Below, in pieces: positions 31,286 through 34,253 of a stretch of DNA of 64,000 nt. Origin of the DNA: an uncultured Pelagibacteraceae bacterium (GTDB lineage Bacteria; Pseudomonadota; Alphaproteobacteria; Pelagibacterales; Pelagibacteraceae); contig CACGEW010000005.1 of the NCBI GenBank assembly GCA_902572345.1, positions 33,784-97,783 on the forward strand, in the 5' to 3' direction. The notes under the pieces were generated by a model. The model had not been told where the DNA came from. It worked only from the letters and a program-made list of their open reading frames with translations, and did not search any database. Made by a program: the position numbers and the translations under genes. Numbering within the stretch: the stretch's first letter is position 1; each line of letters opens with the position of its first letter.

Positions 31286-31950
31286 ATTCCTCCAAAATTT
31301 CTCTTACTTTTTTTATATTTATTAATAATTCTTATTAAATCACTTGGAGTAAAATCTGGCCATAATTTTTTCAAAAAAAATAGCTCTGAATATGCTAATT
31401 GCCATAACATAAAATTGCTTAACCTTTGATGTCCTCCAGTTCGTATCAAAATATCAGGATTAGGCATACTTCTAGTATAAAGATTTTTTTCAAAACTTTT
31501 AATATCAATTTTTTTTCTAGTTTTTTTAAAAGCATTTAAAATTTCATTTTTTGAACCGTAGTTAATTGCTAGGTTAACAATTATCTTATTGTTTTCTTTT
31601 GTTAAATTTTCAGTTTTTTTTAAAACTGATTTAAGATCTTTGGAAAACTTATTTAATTCTCCAATTATATTTATTTTAATTTTTTGTTTTACTATACTTT
31701 CTATCTCTTGAGAAAAATAATTTTTGATTAACTTAAATAGAAATACTATTTCACTTTTTGGTCTTTTCCAATTCTCTGATGAAAAAACATAAAATGTAAT
31801 ATATTTAATTTTAAGTTTAATTGAGCTTTTAACAATTTTTTTTACTGTTTCAACACCTTGTAAATGTCCGAAATTTCTTCCTTTTTTTTTCTTCTTTCCC
31901 CACCTGCCGTTCCCATCCATAATGAAAGCGACATGGTTGAGCTTATTCAT
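31282..31950 (-). CDS. uppS: Undecaprenyl diphosphate synthase
   Basis: UppS elongates farnesyl diphosphate to the C55 carrier lipid for peptidoglycan and glycan export. The cis-prenyltransferase motifs are HVAFIMDGNGRWGKKK near the N-terminus with the catalytic Asp, GHLQGVETVKKIV, YVFSSENWKRP, and RTGGHQRLSNFMLWQLAYSELFFL near residue 170. The length is 222 residues. It overlaps frr by 4 bp and cdsA by 4 bp. Confidence 0.96.
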   Translation of the reverse strand: MNKLNHVAFIMDGNGRWGKKKKKGRNFGHLQGVETVKKIVKSSIKLKIKYITFYVFSSENWKRPKSEIVFLFKLIKNYFSQEIESIVKQKIKINIIGELNKFSKDLKSVLKKTENLTKENNKIIVNLAINYGSKNEILNAFKKTRKKIDIKSFEKNLYTRSMPNPDILIRTGGHQRLSNFMLWQLAYSELFFLKKLWPDFTPSDLIRIINKYKKSKRNFGGI

Positions 31951-32507
31951 ATTTGAATGATCTCTTTTTCTTTCTCAGCTAAAATTTTTTCTATATTTTG
32001 TATGTTGCTATCTGTCAATTTTTGAATATTTTTTTCAAAATTTTTACTATCGTCCTCAGAAATTATTTTATCTTTTAGTTTTTTCTTTAAATCCTCATTA
32101 GCTTCCCTTCTAATGTTTCTTATCGAAATTTTACCTTTTTCTCCCATGCCTTTTAATATTTTTATTAAATCTTTTCTTCTTTCTTCCGTTAAATCTGGAA
32201 TTCTTAATCTTATAATTTGTCCATCTACTTGGGGATTTATCCCAAGTTCAGATTTTTGAATGGCTCCCTCTATTAAAGGTGTGTTTGCTTTGTCCCAAAC
32301 TTGTATAGAAATTAATCTTGCTTCAGGAACGCTTACTGTTGCCAGCTGATCTATAGGCATTAATTGTCCGTAAACATCAATTTTGAGAGTATCTAACATG
32401 TTAGTGTTTGCTCTACCAGTTCTCAGTGTTGAAATGTCTTTTTTTAATGATTGAATGCTTTTATCCATCTTTGTGGAATAATTATTTTCATTAAATTCGT
32501 TGCTCAC
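31947..32507 (-). CDS. frr: Ribosome recycling factor
   Basis: RRF splits post-termination ribosomes with EF-G. The 186-residue protein shows the three-helix/beta domain pattern with LRTGRANTNMLDTLKIDVYGQLMPIDQLATVSVPEARL and GQIIRLRIPDLTEERRKDLIKILKGMGEKGKISIRNIRREAN, both highly conserved. It begins 2 bp after tsf; pyrH, which normally lies between tsf and frr, is not here. Confidence 0.97.
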   Translation of the reverse strand: MSNEFNENNYSTKMDKSIQSLKKDISTLRTGRANTNMLDTLKIDVYGQLMPIDQLATVSVPEARLISIQVWDKANTPLIEGAIQKSELGINPQVDGQIIRLRIPDLTEERRKDLIKILKGMGEKGKISIRNIRREANEDLKKKLKDKIISEDDSKNFEKNIQKLTDSNIQNIEKILAEKEKEIIQI

Positions 32508-32509
32508 TA

Positions 32510-33376
32510 TTAAATTCCTTCTCCGACTTTATATCTTACAAAATTTATAACCTTGAGTGGTTTATCTTTAGAATTTTCTTTTAAAATATCCTGAACTTTT
32601 TTTTTTGGATCCATTATCCATAATTGATTTAAAAGTGAATTGTCATTTAAAAATTTTGATATTTTTCCTTTAGAAATTTTTTCAGCCATTTCAGATGGTT
32701 TACCAGAATTCGTAATTTCTGCTTTTATGATTTCCATTTCTTTTTCCACGATACTCTTATCTATATCTTTCTTATCTAAAGCTAATGGATTAGAAGCAGC
32801 AATATGCATTGCGATTTTAGATCCAATATCTTCATTTTTTCCTTTTGATATTCCATCTAATTTGACGATTGAGATTATTTTTCCTATACCTTTTTCAATA
32901 GCTGAATGAACATATGCAAAATTTATTCCAGTATCCTTGTTAAAAAAAGTGGCTCTTCTAATAGTTATTTTTTCTCCAATTTTAGCAATTAAATTTACTA
33001 AATTATCTTTTACTAGTGAACCATTAGACATTTTACTCTCATTTAATTTATTTATATCACCTTCAATTAAAAAATTAATTTCTGATATTTCTTTACAAAA
33101 ATTTATAAAATCTTTATTTTTAGCAACAAAATCAGTTTCACTATTGATTTCGATAAGAGATATTTTGCCATCACTTTCTTTTACTAAAGCTAAGCCCTCT
33201 GATGCAGTTCTGCTCATTTTTTTTGAAGCTTTGGCAATCCCTTTTTTTCTTAAGAACTCAACTGATTTCTCTATATCGCCTTTAGTTTCATCTAAAGCAT
33301 TCTTGCAATCTTTAAAACCTACGCCAGTCATTTCTCTCAATTTTTTAATTTTGTCTAGAAGATCTTTGTTTGACAT
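32510..33376 (-). CDS. tsf: Elongation factor Ts
   Basis: EF-Ts recharges EF-Tu with GTP. The N-terminal UBA-like domain has LREMTGVGFKDCKNALDETKGDIEKSVEFLRKKGIAKASKK, and the core contains INSETDFVAKN, needed for EF-Tu contact, and MHIAASNPLALDK. The length is 288 residues. It lies 17 bp downstream of rpsB, the usual pairing, and presumably shares control by the rpsB leader. Confidence 0.97.
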   Translation of the reverse strand: MSNKDLLDKIKKLREMTGVGFKDCKNALDETKGDIEKSVEFLRKKGIAKASKKMSRTASEGLALVKESDGKISLIEINSETDFVAKNKDFINFCKEISEINFLIEGDINKLNESKMSNGSLVKDNLVNLIAKIGEKITIRRATFFNKDTGINFAYVHSAIEKGIGKIISIVKLDGISKGKNEDIGSKIAMHIAASNPLALDKKDIDKSIVEKEMEIIKAEITNSGKPSEMAEKISKGKISKFLNDNSLLNQLWIMDPKKKVQDILKENSKDKPLKVINFVRYKVGEGI

Positions 33377-33393
33377 TAGAAAATTATATGAAA

Positions 33394-34134
33394 TTATTTT
33401 TTTTGTTTTCTTGAATTTTTCTCTTCAGCCTTTTCCTCTGATCCTTTGATGTGTTTCTGAGCATCTATAATTGTATTTTTTAGGAGTTCGCAATAAAGGC
33501 TAATAGATCTTCTTGCGTCATCGTTACCAGGTATTGGGTAATCAATTCCAGTCGGATCAGAATTTGTATCTAACACAGCTATAATAGGTATTCCTAATTT
33601 TTTTGCCTCCGCGACAGCTAGAGACTCTATATTTGTATCAACAATAAAAATTAAATCTGGTGTCTTCTTCATTTCTGCAATTCCACCTAATGATCTTTGT
33701 AATTTTTCTTTTTCTTTACTGAATTTTAGCATTTCTTTTTTTGTAAAACCTAAGTTTTCTTTTGATAGTTGGTTTTCCAACATCTTTAATCTTTTAATTG
33801 AATTTTGTATTGTATTCCAATTGGTTAACATGCCTCCGAGCCATCTGTAATTTACATAAAATTGATCTGTTTCCTTTGCTAAATCACTTATCTGCTCCGA
33901 AGCTTGCTTCTTAGTTGAGACAACTAATAATTTTCCACCACTAGATATTACTTTATGCACTTGAACTAATGCATTTTTAAGATAATCAACTGTTTGGATT
34001 AGATCTATAATGTGAATTGAGTTTTTTTCTCCAAAAATATATTTCTTCATTTTTGGATTCCATCTGAGTGTTTTATGGCCTAGATGTACACCAGCTTCTA
34101 ATAATTGTTTTATGTCTACTTTTGGTACGTTCAT
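33394..34134 (-). CDS. rpsB: 30S ribosomal protein S2
   Basis: S2 binds the 30S head. Conserved stretches are [61 protein letters not shown], and [31 protein letters not shown]. The length of 246 residues has a basic/acidic C-terminal tail of low complexity. It has its own promoter region and a folded 5' leader downstream of dnaE, which suggests S2 autoregulates rpsB-tsf. There is no strong Shine-Dalgarno apart from CCGGA, which is part of the predicted pseudoknot. Confidence 0.98.
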
Positions 34135-34141
34135 AATTTTT

Positions 34142-34205
34142 CCGGTTAATCCACCACAGTAATTCCATATTTATGGACCGGTAGGGCAATGCCCTTATAA
34201 CTGTG
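34142..34205 (-). ncRNA. Predicted structured rpsB leader (two hairpins, closing stem, pseudoknot over the RBS)
   Basis: On the transcribed strand CACAGU (34205-34200) pairs with ACUGUG (34160-34155), closing a junction. Inside are hairpin AGGGC-AUU-GCCCU (34195-34183) and hairpin UCCAU-AAAU-AUGGA (34177-34164). CCGGU between them (34181-34177) can pair with ACCGG (34146-34142), placed 7 bp before the rpsB ATG and containing the only Shine-Dalgarno-like GGA. The pseudoknot shares one base with the second hairpin. Such a fold would block initiation when stabilised, the usual logic of ribosomal-protein autoregulation. The pairings are seen directly; S2 as ligand is inference. Confidence 0.7.
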
Positions 34206-34221
34206 TGCGAAATTAGGACAA

Positions 34222-34249
34222 CATATATACAATCAATCTAAAAAATCAA
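34222..34249 (-). promoter_or_regulatory. Candidate promoter for rpsB-tsf
   Basis: On the minus strand TTGATT (34249-34244) and TATATG (34227-34222) are separated by 16 bp, fair matches to the -35 and -10 consensus. Transcription would start near 34215, just ahead of the predicted leader fold. AT-rich context makes the match only moderately significant, but the 119-bp gap between dnaE and rpsB and the leader structure favour a promoter here. Confidence 0.45.
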
Positions 34250-34253
34250 CTGT

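Follow-up and report, generated by a model that had tools for sequence, protein, structure and literature searches.

The closest described relative of the element analysed here is the 'rpsB motif', which was named and discovered in Cand. Pelagibacter ubique through its GC-rich intergenic regions (Meyer et al. 2009, PMC2704228). It comprises the helices P1, P2 and P3 before rpsB, together with a previously unreported pseudoknot involving the junction J2-3, and is known from Cand. P. ubique and most Alphaproteobacteria (PMC2704228). In E. coli, ribosomal protein S2 acts as the autogenous repressor of rpsB-tsf via the 5' UTR when it is in excess over 30S subunits, with help from S1, the protein that S2 anchors on the 30S subunit (PMC10931766). 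A 2024 review places the Shine-Dalgarno (SD) sequence and the start codon outside the operator, of which the ribosome-binding site is reportedly no part, and describes the mechanism of repression as unclear (PMC10931766). This E. coli version is filed as Rfam t44 (RF00127) and annotated as the ncRNA tff.

We analysed a 64,000-nt stretch of DNA from an uncultured Pelagibacteraceae bacterium (hereafter, the window). The minus-strand RNA element preceding rpsB in the window is the SAR11 copy of the rpsB motif, Rfam RF01815, and as such already described, which answers the question posed by the initial annotation of whether this leader belongs to a known class. Very probably, it functions as a cis-acting 5' UTR element that allows S2, once more abundant than 30S subunits, to repress the translation of the rpsB-tsf mRNA encoding it.

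Architecture and identity of the SAR11 rpsB leader

The regulated gene, rpsB (33394-34134; this and all following features are on the minus strand), encodes ribosomal protein S2 (TIGR01011, 318.7 bits against a cut-off of 76.3) and is followed by tsf for elongation factor Ts (32510-33376; TIGR00116, 260.7 bits against a cut-off of 104). Read 5' to 3', the region ahead of them consists of a promoter-like pair, the 5' strand of P1, the P2 hairpin, CCGGU, the P3 hairpin, the 3' strand of P1, a GAUUA linker, ACCGG, AAAAAUU and the ATG (34134). The four pairings that the initial annotation had described before rpsB are all present where it placed them, with some amendments. P1 (34152-34209, including the enclosed region) does contain the proposed CACAGU/ACUGUG, a 6-bp inner stem (34200-34205 with 34155-34160), but continues past a bulged A (34206) as a 3-bp outer stem, CGC/GUG (34207-34209 with 34152-34154). 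P2 is the hairpin AGGGC-AUU-GCCCU (34183-34195) and P3 the hairpin CCAU-AAAU-AUGG (34165-34176), while the pseudoknot joins CCGGU in J2-3 (34177-34181) to ACCGG (34142-34146), 7 nt before the ATG. The pairings had been called independent, yet U34177 was counted in both CCGGU and the UCCAU of P3: a fifth P3 pair, U34177-A34164, would compete with the pseudoknot, and P3 measures 4 bp once the latter has formed. Likewise, the description of the DNA as very AT-rich fits the surroundings (23% GC) better than the element itself, which is a 42% GC island.

This arrangement reproduces the published motif. The element lies directly upstream of rpsB, its P1 ends in a three-way junction from which P2 and P3 emerge, and a five-pair pseudoknot connects J2-3 with a 3' extension of P1. 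An Rfam scan placed a match to RF01815 exactly at the leader (34126-34209; 32.3 bits, E = 1.7e-4); this falls short of the 40-bit gathering score, a curator's threshold rather than a structural feature. The t44 model (RF00127) did not match the window leader, and RF01815 was the only plausible family to do so, even at E-values up to 10.

Upstream of P1 lies the promoter-like pair (34222-34249), composed of TTGATT (34244-34249) and TATATG (34222-34227) with a 16-nt spacer, whose position relative to P1 is conserved in the window's genus. Nearly every member of this genus has TTGATT at the same distance ahead of P1, and in most of the remaining Pelagibacteraceae a TTG element can be recognised with an AT-rich -10-like box after it. 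Judging from the conserved pair, transcription would begin near 34215, ahead of P1, giving a leader of ~80 nt; a start downstream of 34200, which the initial annotation had named as an argument against its own proposal, would not fit this placement. The promoter assignment rests on positional conservation rather than on the generic sigma-70 consensus scan, which found no promoter above its threshold.

A separate observation concerns the genes downstream. The gene for the bacterial UMP kinase, pyrH, is usually found between tsf and frr; in the window (31947-33376), tsf is followed directly by frr and pyrH is absent. No full match to TIGR02075 was obtained in the window's genome or in 36 further genomes of its genus, many of them incomplete, nor in two single-contig Pelagibacteraceae genomes (G158 and G267); most sister-family genomes contain one at >300 bits. 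Besides, tsf directly precedes a ribosome-recycling-factor-like gene in HTCC9565, and only one ADK-family kinase was found per genome in the six genomes checked.

Compensatory change in stems and pseudoknot

The RNA structure, pseudoknot included, is conserved by compensatory change and precedes rpsB in the loci read. Among 40 distinct Pelagibacteraceae leaders (alignment A1), 95.3% of the pair cells were standard pairs, and changes on both sides occurred at 11 of the 23 pairs, in 66 cells, a level that none of 500 shuffles reached. Sliding the partners by 1-3 columns in these leaders lowered the pairing to 31-48%. By helix, P1 was paired in 99.2% of the cells, with double changes at four pairs, and P2 in 97.4%, with double changes at three of its four outer pairs and covariation at the loop-closing pair as well. 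P3 is variable in length and had double changes at three of four pairs; its pairing of 78.5% includes slips of the alignment at this hairpin. As to the outer P1 pair opposite the variable base of GNGG, inspection of the leaders by eye revealed no covariation.

Within these 40 leaders the pseudoknot is invariant and thus neither supports nor opposes itself, whereas its strands covary across the Proteobacteria. In a set of 127 leaders, nearly all alphaproteobacterial and aligned without structure, the pseudoknot was paired in 96.9% of the cells with compensation at three of five pairs, and the inner P1 stem in 99.7% with compensation at all six. Besides CCGGU/ACCGG, the variants include CUGGU/ACCAG (six genomes from four families) and, in others, UCGGU/ACCGA and CCAGU/ACUGG. 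Gammaproteobacteria, E. coli among them, have GGGGU/ACCCC at the corresponding place; MAFFT had misaligned their J2-3, together with a few further rows, so anchored parsing, a method with a bias towards complementarity, was used to read these pseudoknots, and they were excluded from the compensation counts. One alphaproteobacterial leader with CCAGU/ACUGG (L101, genome G149) carries the element unusually far upstream of the start codon.

RF01815 matches were found in 29 of 61 genomes among the relatives (the window's own included), with none of the 61 reaching the cut-off, and in at least 154 of 240 genomes of the Alphaproteobacteria, a lower bound given the strict filters. Since no relative attains the gathering score although the leaders align with the high pairing given above, this cut-off appears strict for the AT-rich SAR11 branch.

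Could the fold nevertheless be a product of chance pairings in a short intergenic region? The topology (two hairpins inside a P1 of ≥6 bp, together with a 4-bp pseudoknot) does turn up when the 119-nt leader is dinucleotide-shuffled, in 51 of 20,000 cases (0.26%), and the minimum free energy is unremarkable (z = -1.34 over 128 nt) and uninformative. Because folding energy alone is not exceptional, the claim of a real structure rests on the comparative evidence, and the compensation seen in all three helices and in the pseudoknot already refutes a chance origin, whose probability we regard as negligible. Covariation is the decisive evidence, and the compensatory changes whose absence the initial annotation had named as a refutation are plentiful at the stems and the pseudoknot alike. 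Position and covariation, together with what has been published on this class of RNA, support its proposal of a structured leader acting in cis on rpsB-tsf.

Start-site geometry and candidate modes of control

An SD core separates the pseudoknot from the start codon in 82 of 91 other alphaproteobacteria, with a median spacer of 17 nt, and in none of 25 members of the window's genus, where the median spacer is 8 nt (range 4-9). The best remaining SD-like pairing before the window's rpsB, and the only such triplet, is GGA (-3.5 kcal/mol), formed by the GG of the pseudoknot's 3' strand and the next A. Overlap between a GGAG and the pseudoknot strand also occurs in f2, the sister family, and among several further alphaproteobacteria whose spacers are short, so this merged architecture is not unique to SAR11. 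A separate AGGA is kept in one member of the Pelagibacteraceae (G158, leader L081), and an AAGGA in leader L185. Across the window, SD cores precede 18% of 56 genes (≥150 aa) versus 10.5% in shuffles, which suggests that SAR11 initiation relies little on SD pairing. With SD usage barely above that of shuffled sequence, the loss at rpsB may only follow the general drift of the genome away from SDs. A search of the assembly to which the window belongs did not recover the 3' end of the 16S rRNA; one member of the genus (G007) has this end intact (CACCTCCTT).

By homology, the SAR11 leader is most likely subject to the same S2 autorepression as its E. coli counterpart. S2 would bind the fold formed by P1, the junction and the pseudoknot and stabilise it, possibly together with S1, as happens in E. 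coli. The stabilised pseudoknot might then cover the ribosome-binding site directly, since its 3' strand lies so close to the ATG and a separate SD is missing; judging from this geometry, pseudoknot formation and initiation probably compete directly in SAR11. Direct occlusion is not transferable from E. coli, as the ribosome-binding site is reported outside the operator there and the mechanism is unclear. More specifically, the Pelagibacteraceae leader could represent a compact variant in which the 3' strand of the pseudoknot has replaced the SD, such that, unlike at the E. coli operator, the S2-stabilised pseudoknot and ribosome binding exclude each other, a reading that we offer tentatively, as a serious possibility short of a probable one.

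The same geometry could be taken to mean that the fold serves efficient initiation instead of repression, as a platform recruiting the ribosome or S1 in place of an SD. It is precisely the lineage with the pseudoknot right next to the start that lacks the SD, and S2 is the anchor of S1 on the 30S subunit (PMC10931766), yet lineages with strong SDs retain this fold as well and repression by S2 is what the element mediates in E. coli (PMC10931766), making such a platform unlikely in our estimate. Still further from our expectations, and highly improbable, is that the element acts as an independent small RNA and influences rpsB at most secondarily. Rfam types both t44 and rpsB as sRNA, in line with the ncRNA annotation of tff in E. 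coli; however, rpsB follows the element immediately in the loci read, the stretch up to the start codon contains no terminator-like site, and in the window's genus only 4-9 nt lie between the end of the pseudoknot strand and the ATG. We favour a cis-acting leader under S2 control.

Relation to described rpsB leaders

Rfam keeps t44 (gammaproteobacteria) and rpsB (alphaproteobacteria) as separate 'sRNA' families without a common clan (examples are window 34126-34209 and L150 261-347). The two look like versions of one rpsB leader with the same pseudoknot. The window leader and t44 share the gene, a P1 with a bulged A and the position of the pseudoknot. They differ in that the t44 pseudoknot is GGGGU/ACCCC with the SD well downstream of it, and that P2 of t44 is short or absent (Meyer et al. 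2009, PMC2704228).

Well over 100 fresh sequences confirm the RNA described in 2009, including independent covariation of its pseudoknot. No new kind of system is added, and the SAR11 geometry amounts to a small refinement; as a natural minimal version, however, SAR11 could be where the mechanism of S2 repression is simplest to test. Compared with the published rpsB motif (PMC2704228), the gene, the order P1-P2-P3 and the pseudoknot linking J2-3 to the 3' extension of P1 are all as in the window. The window copy departs from it in scoring below the Rfam gathering cut-off, in lacking a separate SD between pseudoknot and start, and in its longer hairpins, which have 5 bp (P2) and 4 bp (P3) where Cand. 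P. ubique is reported to have 3 and 2 bp; a short P2 is also seen in relatives such as Cand. P. ubique HTCC9565 (L190).
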